Positions 2,626 through 17,659 of a stretch of 64,000 nucleotides of DNA are shown one piece after another. The position numbers were made by a program, and so were the translations under genes. The stretch is from assembly GCF_012910955.1 (NCBI RefSeq), contig NZ_WTVQ01000002.1:124001-188000 (forward strand). Reading direction: 5' to 3'. The DNA comes from Aromatoleum diolicum. GTDB taxonomy: Bacteria; Pseudomonadota; Gammaproteobacteria; Burkholderiales; Rhodocyclaceae. A model generated the notes under the pieces. That model was not told the origin of the DNA, ran no database searches, and saw only the letters and a program-made list of their open reading frames with translations. The first letter of the stretch is position 1. Every line of letters begins with the position of its first letter.

Positions 2626-3729
2626 CTAGGCGGCCTGACCGGGTTCGCACAGCGGAACGTGAACGGTTCCGCGGAACAGTCGCCGGGCGGTTCGGATCAG
2701 CCCTGCGGAGAGAATTACGGGCTCGGCCCCCGCTGCATCGGTCGCAACTTTCAGGCGGATATCCAGCGATCCGGCCGGCTGCTCGATGGTCACCAGATGC
2801 GGGTCGCTCGCCTTCGGGCGCGCCAGTCGATGAACCACGGAACCGGGAATGATGCTGGCGGCAGCGAGACATAGCGCACCGGTCACGGCATAAGCGGAAT
2901 GGCAGTTCCACGGCGTGAAGTAGCGCGAGGCGATGACGCCCTCGCCCTGCGGCGGCGCAACCAGTGCGATCTTCGGCAGGACCTTGTCGCGGACGTCGCC
3001 GAGCCCAGCCATCAGTGCGACCTGAAGCCGGACGGATTCCAGCCGGCTTTTCAGTTTGCGATCAGCATCGAGTTCGGCCTTCGATTCGTACCCGGTCTTC
3101 CCCATCGCCGCGGCCGGAACGAAAACCAGCGGCGTCGAGAAATCGACGCAGGACACTTCCACGCCGTCGACGACGTCAAGGGGCTTGCCGGTCGGCAACA
3201 GGCGGCCGGTCTTTGCGCCGGCGGCGTCGCGGAAGTTCAGCTGAATCGGTGCGCCGTTACCGGGCACGCCATCGATCCGCGCGAGGCCGTCGTAACTGAC
3301 CACTCCGCCCGGCGTCTGGATCACGGCCTCGACCACCTTGCCAGTATTCACGTTGAGGATGCGCAGGGTTGTGACCGGGTCCGTGGCGCGCACCAGTCCG
3401 TTTTCGATCGCAAAGGGTCCGACCCCCGCGAGCATGTTCCCGCAATTCGGCGTGGTGTCGACCGTGGCGGTTTCCACCGACACCTGGGCGAAGAGATAGT
3501 CGACATCGATGTCGGCCCTGCTCGCGGGGCTGACGATCACGACCTTGCTCGTGAGCGTGTCCCCGCCGCCAATGCCGTCGATCTGACGCGCATGCGGCGA
3601 GCCCATTGCCGCCAGCAGTACGCGGTCACGCTCGGCCGGGTCCGCGGGAAGATCCTTGGCGTAAAAATAGGGGCCCTTCGAGGTGCCGCCACGTATCAGC
3701 GTGCAGGGAATGCTCAGCAACATGGTCAT
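2626..3729 (-). CDS. prpF: PrpF-family isomerase/tautomerase, copy 1
   Basis: A 367-residue protein of the PrpF / 4-oxalomesaconate tautomerase family, which has the diaminopimelate-epimerase fold and moves a proton and double bond in unsaturated tri- and dicarboxylates. Visible landmarks are the N-terminal PCTLIRGGTSKGPYF, QIDGIGGGDTLTSKVVIV (catalytic-type Lys near residue 62) and TPNCGNMLAGVGPFAIENGL with the conserved Cys at 96. In the cluster the natural job is isomerising cis- and trans-aconitate, or a methyl-aconitate; fungal Adi1 is a PrpF relative that does the former. A second copy lies at 15524-16603. Start at 3729 with GGAAGG just upstream; an ATG two codons in (3723) has better spacing and is possible. 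Confidence 0.88.
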   Translation of the reverse strand: MTMLLSIPCTLIRGGTSKGPYFYAKDLPADPAERDRVLLAAMGSPHARQIDGIGGGDTLTSKVVIVSPASRADIDVDYLFAQVSVETATVDTTPNCGNMLAGVGPFAIENGLVRATDPVTTLRILNVNTGKVVEAVIQTPGGVVSYDGLARIDGVPGNGAPIQLNFRDAAGAKTGRLLPTGKPLDVVDGVEVSCVDFSTPLVFVPAAAMGKTGYESKAELDADRKLKSRLESVRLQVALMAGLGDVRDKVLPKIALVAPPQGEGVIASRYFTPWNCHSAYAVTGALCLAAASIIPGSVVHRLARPKASDPHLVTIEQPAGSLDIRLKVATDAAGAEPVILSAGLIRTARRLFRGTVHVPLCEPGQAA

Positions 3730-3786
3730 GTCCTTCCGTCGTCAACGATGGGGCGATTCTGGGCCCGTGACGGAATAACCTGAAAT

Positions 3787-3809
3787 GCAATAATTGATTA
3801 GATTATTGC
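3787..3809. promoter_or_regulatory. Operator palindrome upstream of prpF copy 1
   Basis: A perfect inverted repeat, GCAATAAT-N7-ATTATTGC, preceded by GAAAT and followed by an additional ATTATTGC half-site at 3811-3818. It sits 58-80 bp upstream of the prpF1 start. Spacing and the T-N11-A core fit a LysR-type activator site. Nearly the same element lies before prpF copy 2 (16677-16699), which points to one shared regulator. Confidence 0.6.
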
Positions 3810-3825
3810 GATTATTGCACTGCGA

Positions 3826-4080
3826 TCACCCGTCGCCTTCGGGGTGCCGGGCCGCCTGCCGGCCGTCGACAAATCGCCGCACATGAGCGAACGCCTCGTG
3901 GAAGTAGGCCTCGTAGGTGTCCTGTTCGACGAAGCCGAGATGCGGCATGCACAGGATCGACGGGTGATTCAGGTAGGGCCCCGCGCCTGCGGGTTCATCC
4001 TCGAAGACATCCAGCGCGGCGGCGCCCGGCCGCCCCCGCTCCAGCGCCTCGCGCAAGGCGCCGGGGCCGATGGCGAAGTG
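3826..4080 (-). pseudogene. Remnant of a D-2-hydroxyacid dehydrogenase (C-terminal piece)
   Basis: The minus strand reads GPGALREALERGRPGAAALD then VFEDEPAGAGPYLNHPSILC and MPHLGFVEQDTYEAYFHEAF before a stop at 3826. This is the C-terminal end of the NAD-binding domain of a D-isomer-specific 2-hydroxyacid dehydrogenase, with the VFEDEP and MPHLG landmarks. Upstream of about 4080 the frame turns into Arg-rich noise and hits a stop at 4156, and no Rossmann GxGxxG or catalytic Arg/Glu part is present. About 80 of the usual 310-330 residues survive. It lies between tcuB and prpF1, so it looks like a decayed former member of the cluster or the scar of a rearrangement. Confidence 0.65.
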
Positions 4081-4155
4081 CGCGCCAGGACCGTCCCGTC
4101 GTCCGCGGCGCCGATCGCGCGGCCGCAGAAGTGGTCCGACCCGGGCGCAATTTCG

Positions 4156-5319
4156 TCACTCGCTGCCGACGCCGACCGGATTGGGCCTGCGCTTCTCGAT
4201 CGCCCATTTCAGCAGCGCGGCGGTGCGATAGATGCCATGCGCGAACTTGCCGTAGGGCATGGTCAGGAACAGCGCCATCACCGCGCCGAGATGCGCCGCG
4301 AGGAGCAGTGCCATTGCTGCGGTGTCGCGGCCGGCAAGCAGCGCGAGCCCCGTCGCGCTGGTGAGCAAGAGTAGCGCGATGAAGCCGCGGTCCATCGGTT
4401 TCTGCGCCGCGTCACCGTGCTGCGGGTGGCGCCGCAGGTTGAGCCACAACAATCCGGCCGGGCCGATGAGCAGGCCGATGCCGCCCAGCGTGCCGAGCAC
4501 AACCGGCAAGCTCGTCAGCGCGTACGGGGCTTCCCAGCCGAGGACATAGTGGTAAAGCGTGGCCACGCTCGTGGCCGCGAAACACAGCATGAAGCCGTAG
4601 AAGGTCAGATGATGGAAGCGCCGCCGCAAGAGCGTGTTGGCGTCGTCCTCGTTCGGACAGCCCTGTCCGTGCCCGCCATCGAGATACTTGAGTTTGAGCA
4701 CGTCGTGCGCGGTCTCGGCGATCGCCGCGGTGTTGGGATCGCCCGCGGAGATCCCGCGCCAGAAGCGGGTCACGCCGACCCCGAGCGCCAGCGCGACGAA
4801 CAGGAAGACCGGACCGAACATGGACACCAGCAGGTTGTGCGGGAAGATCGCGTAGAAGTCGCCCGCCAGCGGGGCATGCAAGAGCGTGCCGCTCTTCGCG
4901 AGCGCCAGCACCAGGAATAGTGCCAGACCCGCTGCGAGGGCCAGCGCCACGGTGAGGCCGTTGTTGCGGTACAGCGCACCGAGTCCGGCCGGCCATGCGA
5001 AGTCCGCGTAGGTCTGCCCGCGCACCTTCGCCATCGCCTGCGGGATATTGACCGCGAATTCGTGCGGTGGCGCGTACTGGCAGGCGTGCAGGCAGGCGCC
5101 GCAGTTGTGACACAGGTTCGCGAGGTAATGAATGTCCGCCTGGCCGAATTCGAGCCGGCGTGTCATCGCCGGGAACACCGCGCAGAAGCCTTCGCAGTAA
5201 CGGCAAGCGTTGCAGATCTTCATCACCCGTTCGACTTCGGCTTCCGCCGCGCTGGGCACCACCGCGGCACCTTGGGCGAGATCGCTCGCCTCGCGGAGCA
5301 GGGCTTCAAGCTGCTGCAT
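4156..5319 (-). CDS. tcuB: TcuB: membrane Fe-S/heme electron-transfer partner of tricarballylate dehydrogenase
   Basis: A 387-residue protein matching TcuB/CitB. The N-terminal third carries two ferredoxin-type clusters ([15 protein letters not shown] and [12 protein letters not shown]). The rest has about six hydrophobic helices (for example [20 protein letters not shown] and [20 protein letters not shown]) with His residues suited to heme b. In Salmonella, TcuB reoxidises the FADH2 of TcuA and passes electrons to the quinone pool. It overlaps the end of tcuA by 14 bp, so the two are translated as a pair. The MFS importer TcuC of Salmonella is absent; the TRAP system at 12.4-15.4 kb probably replaces it. 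Confidence 0.93.
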
Positions 5320-6733
5320 GTTCGACTCCTTCCTTCATGACCGCCGCGGCCGCCGAAGCGCCCGCAATGCGGCCGAATACCGTGCCGATCGTCATGCCGA
5401 CGCCGGCGGTGTAGCCCTGCCCCAGCACGTTGCCGGCCATCATTTCGCCGGCGACGAAGAGGTTGCGGCTCGGCTCGCCGGAAAAATGCGCGGCGGCCCG
5501 CTCGTCGACCTTCACGCCGAGGTAGGTGAAGGTGATGCCGGGCTTCAGCGCGTAGCCGTAGAAGGGCGGCATGTCCAGCGGCAAAGCCCAGTGCGTCTTG
5601 GCGGGACTCACGCCCTCGGTGTGGCAGTCGTCGAGCACGGTGTGATCGAAGCTGCCGCCGCGGCAGGCCGCGTTGTACTCGCGCACGGTGCACACGAAGG
5701 CGAGCTCGTCGAGACCGAGCTGGCGCGCAAGGCCTTCGAGCGTGTCGGCCTTCGTGCCGGGGAACACCGGCGGCATGAAACGCCCGACCGCCTTCGCGTC
5801 GATCACCGAGAAGCCGACCTGGCCGGGCTGCTGCGCGACCAGGCGGCCCCAGATCGCATAGCGCTTGGGCCAGAAGTCCTCGCCCTCGTCGTAGAAGCGC
5901 TGCGCATGTTTGTTCACGACGATGCCGAGCGACACGCAGTCGATGCGCGTGCAGATTCCGCCGTCGTAGAGCGGCGCCCGCGCATCGACCGCAACGCAGT
6001 GCGATTGCGACGGGTCGCCGATGGTGTCCGCGCCCGCCTCCATCATCGCCTTCAGCAGCACGCCGCGATTGAAGCGCGTGCCGCGGATCGCGAAGTTGTC
6101 GGCCGGCCACTCGCCGTCGGCGTTCTGGCCCCACGCCTCGCGCAGCCACTCGCGGTTCGACTCGAAGCCGCCGGCCGCGAGCACGCAGGCGCGTGCCTCG
6201 ATGCGCTCCTGGCCGACCCACGCGGCGCGGAATTCTCCATCGACGAGTTCCAGCCGATCGACCGGCGCGTCGTAACGGATGCGCACGCCGAGCGCCTCGG
6301 CACTGCGATAGTAGGCGTTGACCAGCGCCTTGCCGCCGCCCATGAAGAAGGCGTTGGTGCGCGACAGGTGCAGCGTGCCGGACAGCGAGGGCTGAAAATG
6401 CACGCCGTGCTTGCGCATCCAGTCGCGACAGCGCGAGGACTCGCGGATCGCGAGGCGCGCCAGCCGCTCGTTGGTCCGGCCGCCGGTGACCTTCTTCAGG
6501 TCCTGCCAGAATTCTTCCTCGGGGTAGGCGTCGGTGAGCACATCCTGCGGGGCGTCGTGCATACAGCGCAGATTGCGCGTGTGGCTGGAATTGCCGCCGC
6601 GCCACTCGCGTGGTGCGGCTTCCAGTAAAAGCACCGAGGCGCCAGCCTCGCGTGCCGTCAGCGCTGCGCACAAGGCCGCATTGCCGCCGCCGATGACGAG
6701 CACGTCGGGCGTACCCAGGTTTGTTTGTTTCAT
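5306..6733 (-). CDS. tcuA: TcuA: FAD-dependent tricarballylate dehydrogenase
   Basis: A 475-residue FAD-dependent oxidoreductase of the fumarate reductase/succinate dehydrogenase flavoprotein fold. Landmarks are the dinucleotide motif [17 protein letters not shown] near residues 12-28, [18 protein letters not shown] in the middle, the flavin-cap segment [17 protein letters not shown], and the C-terminal [20 protein letters not shown] that closes on FAD. TcuA oxidises tricarballylate to cis-aconitate. I chose the ATG at 6733, which has AGGAGT about 7 bp upstream, over a longer frame opening at 6778. It is co-transcribed with tcuB and lies directly downstream of a LysR gene. Confidence 0.93.
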
Positions 6734-6859
6734 GTCCTGAACTCCTATTGGCGCAGTTTTTTCTTCGCGCTTGGCCACCGGGACCGGGTCTTGCTACGCG
6801 TCGACGCCTCCACTATCGCGTCCGGCGCACCTGGCGCCCTAAGCCGGTCCGATATCGCC

Positions 6860-7789
6860 TCATCTCGATTCGAGATGGCTGCTCGTGACCCCGCGCCAAC
6901 GCCCTTCCTCGATGAGCTGCCGCACCACCCGCGTCACCGTGCTGCGTGTCGCCAGCGCGGCCGGCGACAATTCGTCGTCCGAAAGACTGCACAGCAGATT
7001 GCGGCGCGACGTTCCTTCGTCGGCGATCTCGCTCCAACACAGGCGCGACTCGGTCTGGCGTGCGAGGGCAGACCACGGCTGGAGCGTCGCCGCCATGCCG
7101 CGCGCGACCATGTCCATCAGCACATAGAGGGAATCGACCTCGGCGATGACCGAAGGCCGGACATCGAGCGCCGCAAACGCGGTGTCGATGACCCGCCGCA
7201 AGCCATGGCGCGGCGTCGGCACGACAAGCGGCACGTTGACGATCTCGGCCAGCCGTGTCGGCAGGACCGCGGGCCGGGCGCCGCTGCCGCAGATGAAGAA
7301 CAGCCGCTCCTCCAGCAGCGGCTGGACGCTGCAACGGCGGGCATGCCCGTTGTCGAACAGCACTGCAAGATCGAGCTCGCGCCCGTTCAGCATCTGCCCG
7401 AGATGCCCGGACATACCCTCGACGAGATGGATGCGGATGTCCGGATACTGCTCGCGCATCGCCTCGATCAGCGGGAAGCCGAGCACCCCGGACGTCGATG
7501 GCGCAAGCCCGATGCTGACGACGCCCGACAGCCGTGATTGCTGGGCGGCCGATGCGGCCTCGTCGGCGTGGCGCAAGGCGAGTTGCGCATGCGACAGGAA
7601 CGCGATGCCGGCATCGGTCGGCACCACACCTGTCGCCGTGCGCTGCAGCAGACGCGTGGCAAGTTCACCTTCGAGACGCTGAATCTGCAAACTGACCGCA
7701 GACTGTGCGATCCCAAGGTCGAGGGCCGCCTGACTGATGCTGCCGAGTTCGATCGTGCGCACCAGGTAGCGCAGCTGTCTTAATTCCAT
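6860..7789 (-). CDS. LysR-family regulator, TcuR-like position
   Basis: A 309-residue LysR protein: an N-terminal winged helix (MELRQLRYLVRTIELGSISQ, then the recognition helix AQSAVSLQIQRLEGELATRL) and a periplasmic-binding-type effector domain starting near residue 90. Start at 7789, the ATG opening the canonical MELRQLRYL; a longer frame exists but has no family support. It lies 126 bp upstream of tcuA on the same strand, where Salmonella tcuR controls tcuABC, so tricarballylate-responsive control is the natural guess. A perfect 17-bp palindrome, CATCTCGA-T-TCGAGATG (6861-6877), overlaps its stop codon. A second LysR gene at 16754 sits at the other end of the cluster. Confidence 0.85.
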   Translation of the reverse strand: MELRQLRYLVRTIELGSISQAALDLGIAQSAVSLQIQRLEGELATRLLQRTATGVVPTDAGIAFLSHAQLALRHADEAASAAQQSRLSGVVSIGLAPSTSGVLGFPLIEAMREQYPDIRIHLVEGMSGHLGQMLNGRELDLAVLFDNGHARRCSVQPLLEERLFFICGSGARPAVLPTRLAEIVNVPLVVPTPRHGLRRVIDTAFAALDVRPSVIAEVDSLYVLMDMVARGMAATLQPWSALARQTESRLCWSEIADEGTSRRNLLCSLSDDELSPAALATRSTVTRVVRQLIEEGRWRGVTSSHLESR

Positions 7790-7850
7790 GTCGTGCCCCT
7801 CCCGTTCGGGTCGCCCGGCCGCCCCGACGAGCAAGTCGTCGGGGACTGGC

Positions 7851-7991
7851 TCAGTTGGTGCTCAGCACTGCGACATCGGCGAGCTCGTCGGATTCATCCC
7901 CCCGGCAACTCGACAGCTCCTTCACCGGCACCGCAGGCGCAGCGATCGGCGCTCGCGGCAGATCGGGCGTTGCCAATTGCGTGGTGCTCAT
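7851..7991 (-). CDS. Possible 46-residue small protein coupled to the lyase gene
   Basis: An ATG at 7991 overlaps the TGA of the upstream lyase as ATGA, the usual sign of translational coupling. The frame gives 46 residues starting MSTTQLATPDLPRAPIAAPA and ending ELADVAVLSTN. The N-terminal half is Pro/Ala-rich and the C-terminal half acidic (CRGDESDELADV). I do not recognise it; it has no membrane segment and no metal motif beyond a single Cys. It occupies most of the gap between the lyase and the LysR gene. It may be real or a chance frame. Confidence 0.35.
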   Translation of the reverse strand: MSTTQLATPDLPRAPIAAPAVPVKELSSCRGDESDELADVAVLSTN

Positions 7992-9346
7992 TGCCCTGCT
8001 CCCGCCGCACGCTGCAGCACCTTGTCGACCATCACGCCGGCCTGGCCAAGGTAGTTCGCCGGATCGCACAGGCGCGCGAGCGCCGCACGGTCGAGATGGA
8101 CGTTGATTTCGGGATGCTCGGCGAGAATGTCGAGCAACGGCCGATTCGTGCGGATCGCTTCGCGGCACAAGTCATAGACCAGATCGTGCGCGTACTCGCG
8201 GCCGATGTAGGGGCCGAGTCCCATCATCACGGCCTCCGACATCACCAGTCCGTTCGTGAGGTCGATGTTGGCGCGCATCTTCGCCGCATCGACCTCGAGC
8301 CCTTCGAGCACGAAGCGCGTCTGCTTGAGCGCCCCGGCGAGCAGGCAGAAGGCCTCCGGCAGCGCGATCCACTCGATCTCCCACGGCCCGGTGGAGCGCT
8401 CGTGATCGGCGATCATCGCGTCCATCAGGGCCGCCGCGTGCTGGCGCACGACCGAGACGGCGGCGTGGATGTAGCAGCTCGAGATCGGATTGCGCTTCTG
8501 TGGCATCGTGCTGCTGGAGCCGCGGCCGGGGTGGAAGGGTTCATACACCTCGGCGACCTCGTGCTGCATCATCAGCTTGACGTCCATCGCGATCTTGCCG
8601 AGCGAACCGCCAACGATCCCGAGAAATGCCCCCACTTCGGCGATCGTGTCGCGCACCGTGTGCCAGGCGATATCCGGCTGCGCGAGCCCCAGTTCTTCCA
8701 TGAGGCCAGCCTGGGTTTCCATCGCGCCCGTTTCGATCGACGCGAGCGTGCCGCAGGCGCCGCCGAACTCGCCCATCAGCACGCGCGGCTTGAGTTGTGC
8801 GAGCCGCTCGCGATGGCGCTCGATGCCGGCGAGGATCGCGGCGGTCTTGAAGCCGAAGGTGACCGGAATCGCCTGCTGCAGGTTGCTGCGGCCGATCACC
8901 GGCGTATCGCGGTAGCGGCGCGACAACCCGGCCAGCGCATCCGAGATGGCCTTCAGTTCGCCGTCGATGATCGCCAGGCCTTCGCGCATCTGCATCACGG
9001 TGGCCGTATCGGTGATGTCCTGCGTGGTGGCGCCCCAGTGGCAATACTCGCCGAGCTTGTCGCGGCACAGCGCGTTGAGCTGGGAAACGACGCCGAGCAC
9101 GGGATAGCCGATGCGCTCGGTCTGCTCACGCAGCTTGTCCATGTCGATCTTGTCGATGTCGCAGTTCTTCACGATCTCCTCGGCGGCTTCCGGCGGGATG
9201 ATGCCCAGCCGGCCCTGCACCACGGCGAGCGCACGCTCGATGTCGAGATACTTTTCGGTGCGGTTGCGGTCGGACCACACCTGACGCATCGCGTCGGTGC
9301 TGAATATGTTGCCGAAGATGCTTGAGTCGATGATGCTCGCGCCCAT
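7988..9346 (-). CDS. Fumarase/aspartase-superfamily lyase, candidate trans-aconitate decarboxylase
   Basis: A 452-residue protein of the class II fumarase / adenylosuccinate lyase / 3-carboxymuconate cycloisomerase superfamily. It shows the first conserved block HWGATTQDITDTA (about 103-115), the second around SNLQQAIPVTFGFK, and the signature GSSSTMPQKRNP (about 277-287) that carries the catalytic loop Ser. AGGAGAAT precedes the ATG at 9346. The family catalyses anti-eliminations on carboxylates. Fungal trans-aconitate decarboxylase Tad1, which makes itaconate, belongs to the same superfamily. Genes for tricarballylate dehydrogenation lie downstream and for itaconate-type CoA catabolism upstream, so decarboxylation of trans-aconitate fits best. 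A PcaB-type cycloisomerase is the main alternative. The specific activity is inference. Confidence 0.7.
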   Translation of the reverse strand: MGASIIDSSIFGNIFSTDAMRQVWSDRNRTEKYLDIERALAVVQGRLGIIPPEAAEEIVKNCDIDKIDMDKLREQTERIGYPVLGVVSQLNALCRDKLGEYCHWGATTQDITDTATVMQMREGLAIIDGELKAISDALAGLSRRYRDTPVIGRSNLQQAIPVTFGFKTAAILAGIERHRERLAQLKPRVLMGEFGGACGTLASIETGAMETQAGLMEELGLAQPDIAWHTVRDTIAEVGAFLGIVGGSLGKIAMDVKLMMQHEVAEVYEPFHPGRGSSSTMPQKRNPISSCYIHAAVSVVRQHAAALMDAMIADHERSTGPWEIEWIALPEAFCLLAGALKQTRFVLEGLEVDAAKMRANIDLTNGLVMSEAVMMGLGPYIGREYAHDLVYDLCREAIRTNRPLLDILAEHPEINVHLDRAALARLCDPANYLGQAGVMVDKVLQRAAGAGQ

Positions 9347-9405
9347 GGCGGATTCTCCTGGAGTTGTGAAAGCGGTAATTCGTTTGAATGCTCGCGGATT
9401 CTGGG

Positions 9406-10224
9406 CTAGGCGCTGTCGGTGCATCGCGCGAGGATGGCCTGCGCCTTGAGCACCACCGGGCGGTCGATCATCTTGCCGTCGAGCTGCACCGCACCGTCGG
9501 ATGCCGCGGCAGCCGCAAGCACGCGCTCGGCCCAGTCCTTCTCCGCGGCCGACGGACGACAGGCGGCGTGGATCACCGCGACCTGCCTCGGATGGATGCA
9601 CAGCTTGGCGCCGAAGCCGAAGGCCCGCGCGAAGGCGAAGTCGGCCGCGATGCGGGCCTCGTCGTCGATGCCCGGCGTAACCCCGGCGACCGGCGCGGCA
9701 AGCTCCGCGCAGCGCGACGCGATCGCGATGCGACCGGACGGGTAGATCAGCCCGGTCTCGTCGCCCGACAGGTCGAGGTCCACGGCGTAATCGAGCGTGC
9801 CGAAGACCAGGCGCTGCACGCCCTCGGCGGCGGCGATCTCATCCACGTTGCGCACCCCGCGCGCGGTTTCGATCAAGGGCAACACCCGTGGTGGCGAGGC
9901 CATCGCACCGATGACGCGCGCAATCTGTGCCGGCCACTCGGTCTTCGGCAGCATCACCTGGGTGACACCGACTTCCTTCAGCAACGCGAGATCGTCGCCA
10001 AACCAGGCGGACTGGGTGTCGTTGGTGCGTACCACGACCCGTTCCGCGTATTCGGCTCGCGCGGGAAACCAGTCGGCGATCGCATCGCGCGCGCGCGCCT
10101 TGTCGGCGGGCACGACGGCATCCTCGAGGTCGAGGACGATCGCCCCGGCGCCGGCCGCGAAGGCCTTGTCGAAACGTTCGGGCCGGTTGCCCGGCACGAA
10201 CAGATAGGTGATCGGCAGCTGCAT
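9406..10224 (-). CDS. CitE-like (HpcH/HpaI) lyase, candidate (S)-citramalyl-CoA lyase
   Basis: A 272-residue TIM-barrel protein of the citrate lyase beta / malyl-CoA lyase family. Landmarks are LFVPGNRPERFDKAFAAGAG, the metal-binding LDLEDAVVPADK, VVRTND, LPLIETARGVRN with the active-site Glu, LVFGTLDYAVDLDL, and LCIHPRQV. Such proteins split acyl-CoA thioesters of 3-hydroxy acids. Next to a CoA-transferase and a mesaconyl/itaconyl-CoA hydratase, the expected reaction is (S)-citramalyl-CoA to acetyl-CoA and pyruvate, as for Ccl of Pseudomonas aeruginosa. It lies 22 bp after the CoA-transferase gene. Malyl-CoA or methylmalyl-CoA lyase activity is the alternative. Confidence 0.85.
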   Translation of the reverse strand: MQLPITYLFVPGNRPERFDKAFAAGAGAIVLDLEDAVVPADKARARDAIADWFPARAEYAERVVVRTNDTQSAWFGDDLALLKEVGVTQVMLPKTEWPAQIARVIGAMASPPRVLPLIETARGVRNVDEIAAAEGVQRLVFGTLDYAVDLDLSGDETGLIYPSGRIAIASRCAELAAPVAGVTPGIDDEARIAADFAFARAFGFGAKLCIHPRQVAVIHAACRPSAAEKDWAERVLAAAAASDGAVQLDGKMIDRPVVLKAQAILARCTDSA

Positions 10225-10246
10225 GACGGTTCTCCCGGTGCGTCGT

Positions 10247-11428
10247 TCAGATCACGCCGGCGCTGCGCAGCGCGGCGATGCGATCGGAGGAGTACCCGAG
10301 CCCGGCAAGGATGGCGTCGCTGTGCTCGCCCAACGCCGGCACCGGATCCATGCGCGGCTCGCCCTCCTCCCACGAGCCCGGCGGCAACAGTGCAGGGACG
10401 GTACCGACCGAAGTGCCGACTTCGCGCCAGCGATTGCGCGCCTGGAGCTGGGGGTGCGCCCACACCGCGTGCATGTCGTTGACGTGCGCGTTGGCGATCT
10501 GCGCATCCTCGAGGCGCGCGATCACCTGCTCGGCGGTGAGACCGGCGAAGGCCTCGACGATGATCCCGCGCAGCGCATCACGGGCGGCGCTGCGCTTCGA
10601 ATTGCTGGAGAAGCGCTCCTCGCGGGCCAGCCCCGGCTGCAGCAGCACCTTGCCGCAGAACGCGGCCCATTCGCGCTCGTTCTGCAGGCCGAGCATGACG
10701 ACCTTGCCGTCGCCCGCCGGGAAGGGGCCGTAGGGGTAGATCGTGGCGTGGCTCGCCCCGGTGCGGCGCGGCGGCGCGGCGCCGTCGAAGGCGTAGTACA
10801 GCGGATAGGTCGTCCACTCGACCAGGCTCTCGAGCATCGAGATGTCCAGGTGCTGGCCGCGACCGGTCTTCTTGCGCTGCAGCAGCGCCGCCAGGATATT
10901 GCTGTACGCATACATACCGGCCGATATGTCGGCGATCGACGGTCCCGCCTTGGATGGCTCCTCCTCGGTGCCGGTCACCGACAGGAAGCCGGATTCGCTC
11001 TGGATCAGCAGGTCGTAGGCCTTCTTGTCGCGATACGGACCGTCACTGCCGTAGCCGGAGATGTCGCAGACGATGATCTCCGGCTTCAAGGCGGAGAGCT
11101 CCGCGTACGACAAGCCCAGCCGTGCGGCGGCGCCCGGCGCGAGGTTCTGCACCACGATGTCGGCCTCCTCGACGATCAGGCGCTTGAGGATCGTCTGCGC
11201 CTCCGGATCCTTGACGTCGAGCGTCAGGCTTTCCTTCGAGCGATTGGTCCACACGAAGTGCGACGCCAGCCCGCGCACGCGCTCGTCGTAGCCGCGGGCG
11301 AAGTCGCCGACACCGGGGCGTTCGACCTTGATGACGCGAGCACCCAGATCCGCGAGCTGGCGCGTCGCGAACGGCGCGGCGATCGCATGTTCGAGGGTGA
11401 TGACGGTGATGCCTTCCAGGGGTCTCAT
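10247..11428 (-). CDS. Family III (CaiB/BaiF) CoA-transferase, candidate itaconate CoA-transferase
   Basis: A 393-residue class III CoA-transferase. It shows the N-terminal PLEGITVITLEHAIAAPFAT, the CoA-contacting ADLGARVIKVERPGVGDFAR and NRSKESLTLDVKDPE, and the catalytic Asp at about residue 167 in AGPSIADISAGMYAYS, followed by KTGRGQHLDISMLESL. These enzymes move CoA from a donor such as succinyl-CoA through an aspartyl-CoA thioester. With the hydratase immediately upstream (10-bp gap) and the CitE-like lyase downstream, itaconate or mesaconate is the likely acceptor, matching the Ict step of itaconate degradation. Acceptor identity is inference from context. Confidence 0.85.
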   Translation of the reverse strand: MRPLEGITVITLEHAIAAPFATRQLADLGARVIKVERPGVGDFARGYDERVRGLASHFVWTNRSKESLTLDVKDPEAQTILKRLIVEEADIVVQNLAPGAAARLGLSYAELSALKPEIIVCDISGYGSDGPYRDKKAYDLLIQSESGFLSVTGTEEEPSKAGPSIADISAGMYAYSNILAALLQRKKTGRGQHLDISMLESLVEWTTYPLYYAFDGAAPPRRTGASHATIYPYGPFPAGDGKVVMLGLQNEREWAAFCGKVLLQPGLAREERFSSNSKRSAARDALRGIIVEAFAGLTAEQVIARLEDAQIANAHVNDMHAVWAHPQLQARNRWREVGTSVGTVPALLPPGSWEEGEPRMDPVPALGEHSDAILAGLGYSSDRIAALRSAGVI

Positions 11429-11438
11429 TGCATGCTCC

Positions 11439-12284
11439 TCACTTGATCACCGCGGTGGCTTCCATCGTCAGCCAGCCTTCGTGGTCCTTCGCCCACAGGC
11501 GGATCGTCTTGCCGTCCGCCTGCGGCTCGCCGCAGACGAAGAAATGGTTGATGTCGAACACCGGCCGCACCGCGCGGAACTCGTAGCGCACGACCTCGGC
11601 ATCGGGCATCCGATGGCGCAGCAGATCGAGCAGCAGCGTCGCGACCATCGGCCCGTGCACGATCAGGCCGGGATAGCCCTCGACCTCGGTCACATACTTG
11701 CGGTCGTAGTGGATGCGATGGCCGTTGAAGGTCAGCGCCGAGTAGCGGAACAGCAGCACGTCGTCCGGCACCCACTTCTTCTCCCACGTCGCAGTCGCGG
11801 GCGCGGCCTTGGGCGGCGGCGCCACGTCGTCCGGCCTGGCCGCCTCGCGATAGACGATGTCGTGGTACTCGGTCAGTGCCACGTCCGTCTCGCCGGGACG
11901 GCGGATCTCGTGGCGCACCTTCACGAACACCAGCGGGCCGGTGCGTCCGGACTTCTCGCTGACGTCGTGGATCGTCGAGGTGCGCGTCATCGCGTCGCCG
12001 ATACGCAGCGGCTGGTGGAACTCGAACTGGCTGCCGGCCCACATGCGACGCGGCAACGGCACCGGCGGCAGGAAACCGCCCCGCTTGGCGTGCCCATCGG
12101 GGCCGATTTCGGACTGCCGATGCAGCGGCAGGAAGTACAGCCAGTGCCACAGCGCCGGCAGCGCGGTGCCGACCGCCGGACGTTCGGCAGGACGGTCGAA
12201 GGTCGCCGACAGCGCGGCGTAGGGAGTAGCGGTCGCGACGTCGGAAACTTCCTCCGCGCGGCCGATCCAGTCTTTGAGATTCAT
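11439..12284 (-). CDS. MaoC-like hydratase, mesaconyl-C4-CoA / itaconyl-CoA hydratase family
   Basis: A 281-residue double hot-dog protein of the FAS1-like dehydratase family that includes mesaconyl-C4-CoA hydratase and itaconyl-CoA hydratase (Ich). Landmarks are HWLYFLPLHRQSEIGPDGHA, GGFLPPVPLPRRMWAGS, a linker of acidic and proline-rich residues, then the MaoC-type half with LFRYSALTFNGHRIHYDRKY, where the Asn/His/Asp cluster forms the active site, and GLIVHGPMVATLLL. It would hydrate itaconyl-CoA to citramalyl-CoA. I chose the ATG at 12284 (MNLKDWIGRAEEV) with GGAG upstream. It is the first enzyme gene after the TRAP genes and likely begins the CoA module. Confidence 0.83.
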   Translation of the reverse strand: MNLKDWIGRAEEVSDVATATPYAALSATFDRPAERPAVGTALPALWHWLYFLPLHRQSEIGPDGHAKRGGFLPPVPLPRRMWAGSQFEFHQPLRIGDAMTRTSTIHDVSEKSGRTGPLVFVKVRHEIRRPGETDVALTEYHDIVYREAARPDDVAPPPKAAPATATWEKKWVPDDVLLFRYSALTFNGHRIHYDRKYVTEVEGYPGLIVHGPMVATLLLDLLRHRMPDAEVVRYEFRAVRPVFDINHFFVCGEPQADGKTIRLWAKDHEGWLTMEATAVIK

Positions 12285-12319
12285 GTTTCGTTCTCCGTGG
12301 GGTACGACGAGACCTGAGG

Positions 12320-12356
12320 GCGGCCCGGCGGCCCCGATCCGGGGGGCCGGGCGGCG
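12320..12356 (-). promoter_or_regulatory. GC-rich hairpin between dctM and the hydratase gene
   Basis: The 74-bp gap between the dctM stop and the hydratase start holds a near-perfect inverted repeat (GCCCGGCGGCCCCG against CGGGGGGCCGGGC, loop of about 3 nt). There is no following T-run, so it is more likely an mRNA-stabilising or partial-termination element within the operon than a full terminator. Confidence 0.4.
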
Positions 12357-12358
12357 CA

Positions 12359-13642
12359 TCACATCATTCCGAGGGTTCTGGGCAGCCAGATGGACAGGCC
12401 TGGCCAGTAGGTGACGACAACCAGGAAGCCGAGCATCGACAGCAACCACGGCCAGACGGCGACGGTCAGCTCGGTGATGCCCATCTTGGTGATGCCGGAG
12501 GCCACGTAGAGGTTGAGCCCCACCGGCGGGTGGCACATGCCGACTTCCATGTTCACCACCATGATGATGCCGAAATGCACCGGGTCGATCCCGAGCTTGA
12601 CCGCCACCGGGAACAGGATCGGCGCGAAGATCAGCACGATCGACGACGGTTCCATGAAGTTGCCGGCCAGCAGCAGGATCACGTTGACCGCGAGCAGGAA
12701 GGCCACCATGCCCAGCCCGTGCCCCAGCATCCATTCCGAGAGCGCCTGCGGGATGTTCTCGCTCGTCATGATGAAGGAGAACAGCACCGCGTTCGTGATG
12801 ATGTACAGCAGCATCGCCGACATGTTGGCCGAATTGAGCAGCACCTTCGGCACGTCCTTCAGCGACATGTCCTTGTACACAAAGACGGCAACGATGAATG
12901 CATAGACCGCGCTCATCGCCGCTGCTTCGGTCGGGGTGAAGATGCCCGTGTAGATGCCGCCCATGATCAGTACGATCAGGAACAGGCCCCAAACCGACTC
13001 CCGGAATGAGCGGATGCGCTCGCCGAACGTGGCCTTGGGCTGGCGCGGATAGTTGTTCTTCTTCGCGCGCCACCAGGTCACCCCGCCGAGCACGCCCGCC
13101 AGGGCAATCCCGGGGATCACGCCCGCCATGAACAGCGCGCCGACCGAGGTGTTGGTCGCGACCGAATACATGACCATGCAGATCGACGGCGGAATCAGGA
13201 TGCCGAGCGCGCCCGACGTGGTGATGACGCCGGCGCCGAACTTGTTCGGGAAACCCGCCTTCACCATCGCCGGCAACAGGATGGCGCCGATCGCGACGAC
13301 GGTCGCCGGGGACGAACCCGACACCGCGGCGAAGAGTGCACACGCCAACACCCCCGCCAGCCCGAGCCCACCGTGCCAGTGACCAACCATCGCCGACGCA
13401 AAGTTGATCATGCGGCGCGCGACTCCCCCGTGCGTCAGGAAGTTGCCGGCCACGATGAAGAAGGGAATGGCCATGATTTCGAACTTCTCGATGCCGGTGA
13501 ATAGCTTCAGCGCGACCGACTCCAGCGGCACCTGCGTCATCGTGAACAGGAAGGACAAGACAGTCAGGCCGAGCGAGATCGAGATCGGCATGCCGGTCAG
13601 CATAAGGGCCAGCAAGAGCCCGAAAATTACGGCAGCGTTCAT
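12359..13642 (-). CDS. dctM: TRAP transporter large permease, DctM type
   Basis: A 427-residue integral membrane protein with about 12 hydrophobic helices, from MNAAVIFGLLLALMLTGMPI at the N terminus to FLVVVTYWPGLSIWLPRTLG at the end. Family segments include FFIVAGNFLTHGGVARRMIN, AAVSGSSPATVVAIGAILLP, GALGILIPPSICMVMYSVAT and the Pro-rich NMEVGMCHPPVGLNLYV. DctM is the ion-coupled import channel of TRAP systems and works with DctQ and the periplasmic DctP. The start overlaps the dctQ stop by 4 bp (ATGA). In this cluster the cargo is most likely a tricarboxylate such as tricarballylate, aconitate or itaconate. Confidence 0.95.
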   Translation of the reverse strand: MNAAVIFGLLLALMLTGMPISISLGLTVLSFLFTMTQVPLESVALKLFTGIEKFEIMAIPFFIVAGNFLTHGGVARRMINFASAMVGHWHGGLGLAGVLACALFAAVSGSSPATVVAIGAILLPAMVKAGFPNKFGAGVITTSGALGILIPPSICMVMYSVATNTSVGALFMAGVIPGIALAGVLGGVTWWRAKKNNYPRQPKATFGERIRSFRESVWGLFLIVLIMGGIYTGIFTPTEAAAMSAVYAFIVAVFVYKDMSLKDVPKVLLNSANMSAMLLYIITNAVLFSFIMTSENIPQALSEWMLGHGLGMVAFLLAVNVILLLAGNFMEPSSIVLIFAPILFPVAVKLGIDPVHFGIIMVVNMEVGMCHPPVGLNLYVASGITKMGITELTVAVWPWLLSMLGFLVVVTYWPGLSIWLPRTLGMM

Positions 13643-14346
13643 TTCGTCTTTCCTCCGCCCTCACCGCGCACGCTCTTCTGCGCTTCGCCTGCGTCCTTCA
13701 AATCGTGCGGATGCAGGTTGTCTTCGAGCGCAAACCCGTCGAATTCAGCGCCTGGTCCGGCCTCCTCCAAGCCCTCGACATGGCCGTGGTCGTGATGCGG
13801 CAACTCGCCGGTGCGCCAGAAACTGAAGGCGACCTGCAGGAAGCGAAAGCACATCAGACTCGAGCCCAGCGGAATGGCGCTATACACGATCCATGTCGGC
13901 CACTCGAGATCGGGCGTGGTCGGTCCTTCCACCACATCGTCAAGCGCCAGGCCGGCCATGTCGAAAAAGGCGTAATGGGCACCGTTTTCCCACACGAACC
14001 CGCCACCAAGAGTCGCGACGATCCCGGTAAACAGCGCCCCGGCTAACAGGCCGAAGAGGATGAATTTCGACCGCAGCTGCGGCTGCAGCTGGTTGATCAG
14101 CACGTCGACGCCGACATGGATGCCGGTGCGAACGCCGTAGGCCGCCCCGAACTTCGCCATCCATACGAACAGAATGATGGTCAGTTCCTGCGCCCAGCTC
14201 AGATTGATCGAAAGCAGCCAATCCTGGAGCCCAGGAATGGAAAAACCCGAGGCATAGCGATGCATCACGGCGGCGAAGGTCACGAGCGTCGCCGTGCCGA
14301 TCAACAGCGTGATGAGCCATTCCTCGAGGTAGTCTAGGAATTTCAT
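13639..14346 (-). CDS. dctQ: TRAP transporter small permease, DctQ type
   Basis: A 235-residue protein starting MKFLDYLEEWLITLLIGTAT with four hydrophobic helices and the DctQ landmark LSWAQELTIILFVWMAKFGA followed by GVRTGIHVGVDVLI. It is longer than the usual 160-180 residues because of an acidic, His-rich cytoplasmic tail (HHDHGHVEGLEEAGPGAEF and beyond) that ends KSVRGEGGGKTK. I chose the ATG at 14346 with the preceding GGGAGATT as ribosome site. It is translationally coupled to dctM. The extra tail is unusual and of unknown use. Confidence 0.92.
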   Translation of the reverse strand: MKFLDYLEEWLITLLIGTATLVTFAAVMHRYASGFSIPGLQDWLLSINLSWAQELTIILFVWMAKFGAAYGVRTGIHVGVDVLINQLQPQLRSKFILFGLLAGALFTGIVATLGGGFVWENGAHYAFFDMAGLALDDVVEGPTTPDLEWPTWIVYSAIPLGSSLMCFRFLQVAFSFWRTGELPHHDHGHVEGLEEAGPGAEFDGFALEDNLHPHDLKDAGEAQKSVRGEGGGKTK

Positions 14347-14366
14347 CGGAATCTCCCGAAGGTAGT

Positions 14367-14416
14367 GGGCGGGCAGCCGTACGCCGCAGGCAGGCCCTGC
14401 AAGGCCCTGCCCGCCC
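14367..14416 (-). promoter_or_regulatory. Stem-loop between dctP and dctQ
   Basis: Perfect 10-bp arms GGGCGGGCAG (14367-14376) and CTGCCCGCCC (14407-14416) enclose a smaller GCAGG/CCTGC hairpin. The element has no T-run. Such structures between a binding-protein gene and its permease genes usually protect the upstream message and allow more DctP than DctQM to be made. Confidence 0.55.
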
Positions 14417-14434
14417 GAGATCTGTGCTGCGCCC

Positions 14435-15436
14435 TTACTTGCTCGCGACTGCTGCGGTTTCCTTGCGTACCGCGTCGATGACGTCCTTGCCGATACGGCT
14501 TGCCATCTCATCCTGCACAGGCGCCATCGCCTTGATCCAGGCTGCCCTTTCCTCCGGCGTCGGCGTGTGCACCTCCGTCTTGCCGGTCGCACGGATCCCC
14601 GCGAGCGCCTTCGCGTCGTCCTCGGCGGCGACTTTGGCGTTGTACGCGGTGGCGTCCTTCATCGCCCCCTCGAGCTCTTGCCGGATATCCACGGGGAGCT
14701 TCTCCCAGAAGGACTTGTTCACGACCACGACGTAGCCGCTGTAGGTGTGATACGTCAGCGTCACGTGCTTCTGCACCTCATGCTGCTTCTGGGTGTAGAG
14801 GTTCGACAGGTTGCCGTCCGCGCCATCGACGACACCGGTCTGCAGCGCCTGATAGACCTCGGAAAACGCCATCGTCTGGGGGATGGCGCCGATCGATTTC
14901 ATGATCGCCTGATTGACCTTTGACGAATTGATCCGGATCTTCTGTCCCTTGGTCTGGTCCGGCGTGTGTACCGGCTTGTTGGAACTCAGGACGCGGAACC
15001 CCGCGTCCCAGTACGACAGACCAACGAATCCGCGGGACTCCAGCTTCTTCAGCAACGATGTGCCGACGGGTCCCTGCGTCACCCGGTGCAGGGCTGCCTC
15101 GTTCGGGAAGATGTAGGGCAGGTCGAACACCTCGAACTCCTTGATGCCCGCCGGACCGAACTTGCCCGCCACCGGGGCGAGCATGTGGACCGAGCCCATC
15201 TGCAACGCCTCGAGTTCCTCCTTGTCCTTGTAGAGCGTGCTGTTGGCATAGACCTCGATCTTCACCCTGCCCTTCGTGCGCTCTTCGGCGGCCTTCTTGA
15301 AATATTCGGCCGCCTGGCCCTTCGGCGTGTCGGCTGCCGCGACATGCGAGAACTTGATGACAATCGGGGCCTGTGCGCCGGCCAGGCCCGAAAACGCAAT
15401 GCCGACGGCGGCGGTGATGGCGAAGAGGGTTTTCAT
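14435..15436 (-). CDS. dctP: TRAP transporter periplasmic binding protein, DctP type
   Basis: A 333-residue secreted protein with signal peptide MKTLFAITAAVGIAFSGLAGA and mature start near QAPIVIKFSHVAAAD. Family landmarks are KFSHVAAADTPKGQAAEYFK, YANSTLYKDKEELEALQMGS, FDLPYIFPNEAALHRV, and KIRINSSKVNQAIMKSIGAI with the Arg that pairs with the substrate carboxylate. FSEVYQALQTGVVDGADGNL follows. It captures a carboxylate in the periplasm for DctQM. GAGACGAAAC precedes the ATG. It lies 87 bp downstream of prpF2, probably in one transcript. Confidence 0.95.
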   Translation of the reverse strand: MKTLFAITAAVGIAFSGLAGAQAPIVIKFSHVAAADTPKGQAAEYFKKAAEERTKGRVKIEVYANSTLYKDKEELEALQMGSVHMLAPVAGKFGPAGIKEFEVFDLPYIFPNEAALHRVTQGPVGTSLLKKLESRGFVGLSYWDAGFRVLSSNKPVHTPDQTKGQKIRINSSKVNQAIMKSIGAIPQTMAFSEVYQALQTGVVDGADGNLSNLYTQKQHEVQKHVTLTYHTYSGYVVVVNKSFWEKLPVDIRQELEGAMKDATAYNAKVAAEDDAKALAGIRATGKTEVHTPTPEERAAWIKAMAPVQDEMASRIGKDVIDAVRKETAAVASK

Positions 15437-15523
15437 GTTTCGTCTCCTTGGTGTGTTGAGTCTGTTTCGGTTCCAGCCCGACGGACTGTCTGGCCAGAAC
15501 GCTTTGCTATATGCGATGCGCGT

Positions 15524-16603
15524 TCAGGGCGGCGAGCGCACGAACACCTCGCCGCTCAGCAGGGGTCTGGCCGAGGTCACGAGGGATGCCGCACTGATGA
15601 CGGGGACTCCGCTGTCGGAATCGGCTGCAAGATGAAGCTCGCAGGCCATCTGCCCGCTCGGGTGTTCGATGACGATGCGATTTGGCGAATTCTCGTCAAG
15701 CTCGGCCAGCTCTTCGGCCACCGTGTCGGGCGTGTGGCAGGCAGCGGCGAGCGCCAGTGCGCCGGTGGCGGCGTGCACCGGATGGCAGCTCGACGGCACG
15801 AAATAGCGCGATGCGATGCTGCCACCTTGGCGCGGCGCCGCGATCATCGCGATCTTCGGCACCCCCCGATCAGGCGACACGGCAAGCCCCATGAGCTTCG
15901 CCGCGGCAATGCGAATCTCCTCGAGCCGCTCGAGGAAGGCCGGGTCGCCATCCAGTTCCTGCTTGCTTTCGTGGCCACTCTTGCCAAGCGAAGCGGCTTT
16001 GACGAAGACGATCGGAATCGCGAAATCGATGCAGGTGACGGGCAAGCCCGCGATCAGATCCTGCGCGTTACCCGTCGGCAGCAGCCGCCCGGTTTTCGTC
16101 CCGGCCGGATCGAGGAAATTGAGTGTGATCGGTGCGCTCGTACCCGGAACACCATCGAGGTGAAAGGTCCCGCTGTAGGTGACTTTCCCGCCCGGCGTCT
16201 GAACAAGCGCCTCGACATGCTTGCCGCTGTTGATGTTGAGGATGCGCACCTTCGTGACCGGACTCGACGCCCTGACGAGCCCGCGCTCGATCGCAAAGGG
16301 CCCCACCGCCGCCAGCATGTTGCCGCTGTTGGGCAGCACATCGACCAGATCGCGGGCCACGGAAACCTGCGCGAAGAGATACTCCACATCGGCGTCCGGC
16401 CTGCGCGACGGAGCCACAATCACGACCTTGCTGCTCAGGTCATTGCCGCCGCCCATGCCGTCGATCTGCCTCAGGTCGGGTGAGCCCATCGCCGCAAGCA
16501 GCAGGCAATCGCGAGCCGAACGGTCTTCGGGCAGGTTCTCGGCCAGGAAGAACAATCCCTTCGAGGATCCGCCACGCATCAGCACGCAGGGAATGTGATC
16601 CAC
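15524..16603 (-). CDS. prpF: PrpF-family isomerase, copy 2 (Ser in place of the conserved Cys)
   Basis: A 359-residue paralogue of the protein at 2626-3729, sharing CVLMRGGSSKGLFFL, RQIDGMGGGNDLSSKVVIV, YLFAQVSVARDL, GPFAIERGLVRA, VRILNINSGKHVEALVQTPG and SIASRYFVPSSCHPVHAATG. The active-site strip reads LPNSGNML, so the position that is Cys 96 in copy 1 is Ser 93 here, while the Lys of SSKVVIV (59) is kept. In PrpF relatives the Cys belongs to the proposed active site, so this copy may use a different mechanism, act on another isomer, or be impaired. It is the first gene of the long minus-strand cluster and is divergent from a LysR gene. Confidence 0.87.
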   Translation of the reverse strand: MDHIPCVLMRGGSSKGLFFLAENLPEDRSARDCLLLAAMGSPDLRQIDGMGGGNDLSSKVVIVAPSRRPDADVEYLFAQVSVARDLVDVLPNSGNMLAAVGPFAIERGLVRASSPVTKVRILNINSGKHVEALVQTPGGKVTYSGTFHLDGVPGTSAPITLNFLDPAGTKTGRLLPTGNAQDLIAGLPVTCIDFAIPIVFVKAASLGKSGHESKQELDGDPAFLERLEEIRIAAAKLMGLAVSPDRGVPKIAMIAAPRQGGSIASRYFVPSSCHPVHAATGALALAAACHTPDTVAEELAELDENSPNRIVIEHPSGQMACELHLAADSDSGVPVISAASLVTSARPLLSGEVFVRSPP

Positions 16604-16676
16604 TTGCCTGTCTCCTTATTGCACGTTCTGCTGTTTTGTGAGGCAATATTAGACAAGCGCGCTGATTTGCAGAAAT

Positions 16677-16699
16677 GCAATAAATTCCTGTTTTATTGC
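16677..16699. promoter_or_regulatory. Operator palindrome between prpF copy 2 and its LysR regulator
   Basis: A perfect inverted repeat, GCAATAAA-N7-TTTATTGC, in an AT-rich 150-bp divergent gap. It is preceded by GAAAT and followed by G, exactly as at 3787-3809. An overlapping TTGCA-GAAA-TGCAA repeat lies just to its left (16667-16680). The palindrome is 74 bp from the prpF2 start and 55 bp from the LysR start, as expected for a LysR protein that activates one gene and represses itself. Confidence 0.65.
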
Positions 16700-16753
16700 G
16701 TTCCTAGCATAGATAGACAACTCTCCTTTTGCATCCCATTCTGGAAAGCTGCC

Positions 16754-17659
16754 ATGAAGATCGATTTCGACGGAATTCAGGCCTTCGTGGTGATTGCCGA
16801 GCTGGGCGGATTCAGCAAGGCCGCCGAACATCTGCATGTGACACAGACGGCACTCACCCGCCGCGTGCAGAAGCTCGAGTCCTACCTCGGATTGCGGCTC
16901 CTCGACCGCACGACGCGCTACGTCGAACTCACCGCGGTTGGGCGCGAGTTCCTGCCCCAGGCGAAAGCGATCGTCGGCGAAATGACGCTCGCGGTCGGGC
17001 GCATGAAGGACATGTCGAAGCACGCCCGCGGCAGCTTCACGCTCGCCTGCGTGCCGACGATGGCCTCGCATGTGCTGCCGGCGGTAATCCGTCGCTATGC
17101 AGAAGCCCATCCGGGCAACCGCGTCCGCCTCATCGACACGAGTGCGTTCGAGGTCCGCGACGCAGTGCTGCACGGGCAGGCGGAGATCGGCATCGGCATC
17201 CCGACGGACCGTCATCCGGATCTGATCGAAACCCTGCTGCTGGAAGAGCCGCTGATGTTCTTCTGCCGCGAGGAGCACCCACTGAGCAAAATGAAGTCGG
17301 TGACCTGGTCCGACATGCGCGAAACCGAGCTCGTCGTCGTCAGCAGCATGACGGCGACGCGGGTCTTCATGGACTACCAGCTCGCAAAACGGGGCATCAG
17401 CCTCAGCGGCGCCTACGAGGTACAGCACCACGCGACGGCAATCAGTCTCGTCGCGGCCGGTGTCGGCACGGCGATTCTTCCTGCATCGACCCTCGAGGAA
17501 GGTGCCCGCCCCGGCGTATGCCGGATTCCTCTCGTCAGCCCGGTCGTGAAAAGGAAGATCACGCTCCTGCGCCGCAAGAACAGCACGCTGTCGCCTGCGG
17601 CAAACGCGTTCTTCGAATTATTGAAGGACCAGGCGCAAAACAGCTCGGGGCAGCGCTAG
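16754..17659 (+). CDS. LysR-family regulator of the tricarboxylate/itaconate cluster
   Basis: A 301-residue LysR protein. The start MKIDFDGIQAFVVIAELGGF at 16754 gives the canonical winged helix (FSKAAEHLHVTQTALTRRVQ), with an effector domain from residue 90 (GSFTLACVPTMASHVLPAVI). GGAAAG lies upstream. It is divergent from prpF2, with the palindrome 16677-16699 between them, and the same palindrome lies before prpF1. It is therefore the best candidate for the regulator of the whole 14-kb cluster, with a tricarboxylate or itaconate as co-inducer. The effector is not deducible from sequence. Confidence 0.87.
   Translation: MKIDFDGIQAFVVIAELGGFSKAAEHLHVTQTALTRRVQKLESYLGLRLLDRTTRYVELTAVGREFLPQAKAIVGEMTLAVGRMKDMSKHARGSFTLACVPTMASHVLPAVIRRYAEAHPGNRVRLIDTSAFEVRDAVLHGQAEIGIGIPTDRHPDLIETLLLEEPLMFFCREEHPLSKMKSVTWSDMRETELVVVSSMTATRVFMDYQLAKRGISLSGAYEVQHHATAISLVAAGVGTAILPASTLEEGARPGVCRIPLVSPVVKRKITLLRRKNSTLSPAANAFFELLKDQAQNSSGQR

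Follow-up and report, generated by a model that had tools for sequence, protein, structure and literature searches.

A gene cluster of Aromatoleum diolicum, lying at positions 2626-17659 of a 64,000-nucleotide stretch of contig NZ_WTVQ01000002.1 (hereafter the window, from a genome of 5.15 Mb), is quite probably an operon for breaking down C6 tricarboxylates by way of itaconate, judging from its gene families and gene order. A joined pathway from tricarballylate or aconitate through itaconate to acetyl-coenzyme A (acetyl-CoA) and pyruvate had been put forward in a preliminary description of this DNA, and on homology and gene order it stands as the best-supported reading. The lyase of the cluster is proposed to be a bacterial trans-aconitate decarboxylase of the Tad1 type, a bacterial relative of a kind of decarboxylase known until now from a fungus.

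In the proposed pathway, the substrate would be taken up via a tripartite ATP-independent periplasmic (TRAP) transporter, probably together with an OprD-family porin, and TcuA and TcuB would oxidise tricarballylate to cis-aconitate. A PrpF protein would then convert cis-aconitate to trans-aconitate, which could also enter directly at the Tad-like lyase, and the lyase would decarboxylate trans-aconitate to itaconate. The CoA-transferase would activate itaconate to itaconyl-CoA, the hydratase would convert it to citramalyl-CoA, and the CitE-like lyase would cleave the latter into acetyl-CoA and pyruvate. All of these reactions are inferred for A. diolicum, as are the substrate of the transporter and the direction in which PrpF works. 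The benefit of such a route is likely an entry that bypasses aconitase, an enzyme that excerpts of PMC8871043 describe as inhibited by trans-aconitate.

The Tad1-like lyase and the itaconate genes

Among solved proteins in the PDB, the window lyase scored highest against Tad1 of Ustilago (529 bits), followed by 3c8t (460 bits), the 3-carboxy-cis,cis-muconate cycloisomerase (CMLE) 1re5 (371 bits) and 1q5n (344 bits); the Tad1 match covers residues 8-447 of the lyase, with a full-length identity of 55%. This match is specific, since a relative of 54% identity (L116, the sole one tested of a group at 50-55% identity) is nearest to 3c8t, with 547 bits versus 462 for Tad1, and a relative of 45% identity (L011) has a CMLE as its nearest solved protein. 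The Tad1-type assignment given to the lyase in the preliminary description is borne out by these scores.

In a tree built from 64 of the 130 collected lyase rows, the window lyase, Tad1, 27 beta-clade rows and 15 alphaproteobacterial rows (44 of the 64) formed one clade with support 100/100, and 3c8t and the group at 50-55% identity fell outside it; L107, whose lyase stretch is shorter than 380 residues, probably through a frame break in the record, was left out. A topology joining Tad1 to the 3c8t group was rejected (p-AU, from the approximately unbiased test, 0.0135), and positions of Tad1 within or as sister to the bacterial rows were both compatible with the data (p-AU 0.361), Tad1 being a long branch of which the tree program warns.

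Residue comparison pointed to the same clade. The position of S320 in Tad1 holds Ser in each of the 85 distinct rows within the clade (66 beta, 17 alpha, the window and Tad1) and in none of the 32 distinct rows outside, where 3c8t has Ala, the group at 50-55% identity Ala (6) or Gly (1), the CMLE-like rows Gly (9) or Thr (2), and the others Gly or Pro; 14 rows of the middle group count here as seven genes, and 14 CMLE-like rows as 11. Deposited Tad1 sequences differ from one another at a few sites, presumably by engineering, and three of these sites, G123, S320 (altered in 9h4h) and R360, are all kept in the window lyase, with a fourth, I315, being His. G123 and R360 are also kept outside the clade, leaving S320 alone as clade-specific.

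The genes beside the lyase resemble those of itaconate degradation. For the hydratase, the only strong solved matches were 8khg, an itaconyl-CoA hydratase (expect value (E) 2e-72), and the near-identical 8huc (2e-71), the next solved match standing at 0.0023, so that the suggested itaconyl-CoA hydratase function is sustained as far as sequence can tell. The protein previously noted as a CitE-like lyase likewise has acyl-CoA lyases as its nearest solved relatives, namely 8khl/8wco and 9nzb (E 2e-53, versus 4e-32 for the next solved match). The chains 8khg and 8khl are taken here to be Pseudomonas enzymes.

Recurrence of the gene set in other genomes

A search for the same gene set in other genomes, suggested in the preliminary description, recovered these genes, with their order largely kept, in many related loci, and the set therefore goes beyond chance proximity. 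Scanning genome contigs found at least 591 lyase relatives, the best 80 of which were retained, and 106 loci were scored by tblastn, which also supplied the PrpF counts. After removal of two duplicate loci (L086, identical to L025, and L149, identical to L077), and with thresholds chosen after data inspection using the window's own protein and best hits that come from related, not independent, genomes, the beta clade comprised 70 loci, of which 63 have one or more of the itaconate trio (hydratase, CoA-transferase, CitE) on the lyase strand and 47 have the whole trio. For the 49 flank-complete beta loci, those with 4 kb or more on each side of the lyase, the corresponding figures were 46/49 and 39/49, and all three itaconate genes together with a PrpF gene were present in 33/49. 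None of 15 loci of comparison lyases had itaconate genes beside the lyase (Fisher 5e-12 versus the beta loci, a p value to be read only as a guide). A homologue of the divergent regulator LysR2 was present in 39 of the 51 beta-clade loci with 4-kb flanks, the two duplicates being counted here. The core is hydratase, CoA-transferase, CitE and Tad-like lyase with PrpF and LysR2, and TcuAB is an add-on in a subset.

This subset amounts to 15/49 flank-complete beta loci with both TcuA and TcuB, 13 of which also contain all three itaconate genes. In 12 of these 13, TcuAB and the core are co-directional; 11 loci combine the itaconate genes, TcuAB and TRAP genes, and seven have two PrpF genes in addition. 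The genes for a tricarballylate entry, joined to the itaconate route in the preliminary description, are present in the window and accessory in the wider family. The transporter also differs between related loci, being of the TRAP, sodium:dicarboxylate symporter or TctC/TctA type.

The distribution was further followed at several taxonomic levels. The nearest named records among the matches listed, from Azoarcus and Thauera, have a lyase 95% identical to that of the window. Within Aromatoleum itself the lyase was found at 92% identity or more in 6/17 genomes, the window's counted, which makes the cluster patchy in the genus. Of 399 genomes drawn from the order, with the window genome among the positives, six had the lyase (at least 73% identity), seven the hydratase (at least 70%) and six both; the p value of 1.3e-12 for this co-occurrence serves only as a guide, the genomes being related and the thresholds set by the window. 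The two genes are adjacent in five of the six genomes and lie on separate contigs in G215.

Plasmids also carry the lyase. A match at E 1e-100 was obtained in 39 records of a plasmid collection, seven of them at 60-80% identity; the remaining 32, below 60%, may fall outside the clade. A conjugative Bradyrhizobium plasmid bears a compact LysR/dctA/hydratase/CoA-transferase/CitE/lyase unit, a Variovorax plasmid a similar one, and an Azospirillum plasmid another similar unit in whose incomplete gene table the CoA-transferase does not appear. On a Komagataeibacter plasmid, a lyase of 55.6% identity stands among mobile genes without the itaconate module.

Cluster organisation and alternative readings

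Families were assigned by profile searches against NCBIfam and Pfam and by comparison with solved proteins, and every gene family named in the preliminary description was found in this way. Its fourteen co-oriented genes are corrected to 12 intact minus-strand genes plus one divergent LysR gene, LysR2, on the plus strand from 16754. Two features absent from it are a dehydrogenase remnant and a further regulator, LysR1, within the cluster. The features are as follows.

1061-2377, minus strand: OprD-family outer-membrane porin (PF03573, 120 bits), outside 2626-17659 and adjoining the cluster
2626-3729, minus strand: PrpF1, isomerase of the PrpF family in the Tcu part, with a proposed role in cis/trans-aconitate isomerisation (PF04303, 385 bits; NF033377, 503 bits versus cut-off 440; NCGN-motif Cys present)
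3826-4056, minus strand: truncated D-2-hydroxyacid dehydrogenase gene, of which the 3' part remains (open reading frame; 5' part not in the window)
4156-5319, minus strand: TcuB, tricarballylate-utilisation 4Fe-4S protein (NF011607, 707 bits versus 524; TIGR02484, 421 versus 246.6)
5306-6778, minus strand: TcuA, flavin adenine dinucleotide-dependent tricarballylate dehydrogenase (NF006130, 766 bits versus 369; TIGR02485, 679 versus 372.6); alternative MKQTNL start at 6733
6860-7834, minus strand: LysR1, LysR-type regulator within the cluster (PF00126, PF03466); alternative MELRQLRY start at 7789
7988-9346, minus strand: Tad-like lyase, proposed bacterial trans-aconitate decarboxylase (Tad1 the best PDB match; clade and residues)
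9406-10224, minus strand: CitE-like lyase, proposed citramalyl-CoA lyase (Ccl; best PDB matches 8khl/8wco/9nzb; NF038242 below cut-off)
10247-11428, minus strand: family III CoA-transferase, proposed itaconate CoA-transferase (PF02515, 353 bits; below every NCBIfam equivalog cut-off)
11439-12284, minus strand: MaoC-type hydratase, proposed itaconyl-CoA hydratase (Ich; 8khg, 8huc)
12359-13642, minus strand: DctM, TRAP large permease (TIGR00786, 533 bits)
13639-14346, minus strand: DctQ, TRAP small permease (PF04290)
14435-15436, minus strand: DctP, TRAP solute-binding protein (PF03480; PDB matches)
15524-16603, minus strand: PrpF2, isomerase of the PrpF family assigned to the core (PF04303, 380 bits; NF033377, 456.5 bits versus 440; Ser instead of the NCGN Cys)
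16604-16753, no strand: divergent intergenic region between PrpF2 and LysR2, likely a promoter from the positions of the gene starts
16754-17659, plus strand: LysR2, divergent LysR-type regulator (start position; beside the core module in relatives)

The dehydrogenase remnant sits between TcuB and PrpF1, and relatives such as L018 have the full-length gene (PF02826 and PF00389). An OprD-family porin gene adjoins PrpF1 in several related loci as well. Beyond the cluster, a large open reading frame at 17706-20336 encodes 876 amino acids and, by eye, is presumably a CheB/CheR-type fusion.

Both TcuA and TcuB exceed the curated NCBIfam cut-offs, which confirms their earlier assignment. No TcuC-type transporter gene is present in the cluster, where TRAP genes are found instead; the search for TcuC was confined to the cluster. 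A further feature of the PrpF family is a stop-to-stop frame of about 2 kb or longer containing PrpF, seen in 23 loci, and PrpF and a TctC tricarboxylate-receptor domain occurred together in all four such frames tested by Pfam. In L060, L062 and L065 no signal-peptide-like stretch was visible by eye between the two halves; L040 and L080 have such a stretch with an internal Met, so that two separate proteins are possible there. A single coding sequence of 2025 nucleotides is annotated for the joined frame in Variovorax SRS16. A joined PrpF-TctC frame would tie PrpF to tricarboxylates. The long frames include L060 14779-16884, L062 4801-6900, L065 16066-18102 and L152 13844-15868.

Several observations weigh against the proposed pathway. 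The CitE-like protein scores 142 bits, below the NF038242 RipC_Ccl cut-off of 375, the CoA-transferase lies below all equivalog cut-offs with other transferases as its nearest solved relatives, and the sequence does not fix the substrates of the CoA-transferase and the PrpF proteins. DctP is not specifically nearest to an itaconate binder, 9ht3 ranking fifth among its solved matches. Both PrpF proteins of the window exceed the NF033377 cut-off for 4-oxalomesaconate tautomerase (503 and 456.5 versus 440), and PrpF2 lacks the Cys that PrpF1, LigU and YbhH share. Three of the 49 flank-complete beta loci (L025, L075 and L077) lack all three itaconate genes. Searches of alphaproteobacterial genomes with a clade lyase, covering 16 of the 17 alpha loci, found no hydratase in 15/16, genome completeness not being given, and no PrpF in 11/16, the other five having one. 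The clade may accordingly have more than one role, and only in the beta clade is the lyase firmly tied to itaconate degradation. The sole alpha genome with a hydratase, L108, has it adjoining the lyase and belongs to a small group placed beside Tad1 in the tree.

Two side observations concern these proteins. PrpF2 and nine orthologues (L018-L023, L034, L035 and L107) have Ser in place of the NCGN-motif Cys in 10/10 members. The alpha Tad-clade lyases L092-L103, L105, L106, L110 and L111 are without itaconate genes, some standing beside ABC-transporter genes.

A possible, clearly less probable arrangement is that two modules lie side by side, TcuAB and PrpF1 feeding tricarballylate via cis-aconitate and aconitase into the tricarboxylic acid (TCA) cycle and the itaconate module serving external itaconate or trans-aconitate, so that tricarballylate carbon would bypass itaconate. 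It is in keeping with the absence of TcuAB from most flank-complete core loci, with the opposite strand of TcuAB in L037, L058, L060 and L081, and with cis-aconitate as the product of Salmonella TcuA in the available part of PMC2606687; the shared direction of TcuAB and core in nearly all flank-complete loci with both complete sets argues for the joined route.

It is unlikely that the clade acts on a tricarboxylate other than trans-aconitate, giving a different C5 product, with the Tad1 activity having arisen in the fungus. The alphaproteobacterial genomes without hydratase or PrpF would fit such a history, but the hydratase neighbour is specifically Ich-like and the clade-specific residues are held in common with Tad1. 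Less probable again is a role for the PrpF proteins as 4-oxalomesaconate tautomerases in the 4,5-cleavage of gallate or protocatechuate, as their NF033377 scores would allow: the best LigK/PcmE match of the genome reaches 55.5 bits versus a cut-off of 304.5 and has an internal stop, and Adi1 too has the Pseudomonas putida oxalomesaconate tautomerase tabulated as its closest known relative (PMC4720413, in part). A gallate-pathway role of PrpF was rejected in the absence of any LigK-type match above cut-off in the genome, the search covering LigK/PcmE alone among the genes of that pathway. An ordinary CMLE or an adenylosuccinate-lyase-type enzyme is a very improbable identity for the lyase and was rejected, for although PRK09053, a CMLE model, is its best NCBIfam match and public records name several of its plasmid-borne relatives pcaB or adenylosuccinate lyase family protein, its 494 bits fall below the cut-off of 595, and tree placement, clade residues and Tad1 as nearest solved protein all oppose it.

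Significance and known systems

In open-licence full-text literature, of which only portions were available and which includes no subscription papers or preprints, neither a bacterial trans-aconitate decarboxylase nor a joined tricarballylate/trans-aconitate-itaconate route was found. The balance tips slightly towards a broader proposal, that Proteobacteria possess a widespread, unrecognised and aconitase-free route burning trans-aconitate, and with TcuAB tricarballylate, via itaconate as a deliberate intermediate, and that the decarboxylase clade, which travels on plasmids and which public records call pcaB or adenylosuccinate lyase family protein, is the source of fungal Tad1. If the route in the cluster is confirmed, a bacterial lyase family at present labelled otherwise would gain a named function, plant-derived trans-aconitate would be linked to itaconate metabolism, and bacteria would make itaconate, an antimicrobial inhibitor of isocitrate lyase, merely as a food intermediate. 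Bacterial trans-aconitate decarboxylases would also become available for itaconate production, and the fungal enzyme Tad1 would have a testable origin.

Excerpts of related work touch on parts of this scheme. The itaconate reactions of purple bacteria were proposed possibly to run backwards to cis-aconitate (PMC8307300, a review), and ItcR, a regulator of Pseudomonas, is stated to respond to itaconate, mesaconate, cis-aconitate and trans-aconitate (PMC8526614); in the accessible portion of PMC9875883, trans-aconitate occurs only in a reference.

Four known systems, each compared through sections of its source papers, resemble parts of the cluster. The Salmonella tcuRABC operon shares TcuA and TcuB, whereas the window cluster is without a TcuC-type transporter and is tied to the itaconate route (PMC2606687, PMC10468695). 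The Bacillus velezensis tarRAB system has a PrpF-family aconitate isomerase, a LysR-type regulator and inducible use of trans-aconitate, but leads trans-aconitate via cis-aconitate into the TCA cycle, and no decarboxylase is described in those sections (PMC11495376). The Pseudomonas aeruginosa ict-ich-ccl genes (PA0878, PA0882, PA0883 and IctPQM) likewise encode an itaconyl-CoA hydratase, a CitE-like lyase, a CoA-transferase and a TRAP transporter; the sections concerned mention no aconitate decarboxylase or TcuAB, and the methylsuccinate genes of the Pseudomonas cluster are missing from that of the window (PMC12599236, PMC12290011). The Ustilago maydis itaconate cluster, with Adi1 and Tad1, similarly pairs a PrpF-family isomerase with a Tad1-clade decarboxylase to lead cis-aconitate via trans-aconitate to itaconate, which the fungus makes and exports, whereas the window has genes for CoA-ester degradation and an importer (PMC4720413). 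The parts of the cluster are known, and their combination appears to be new.

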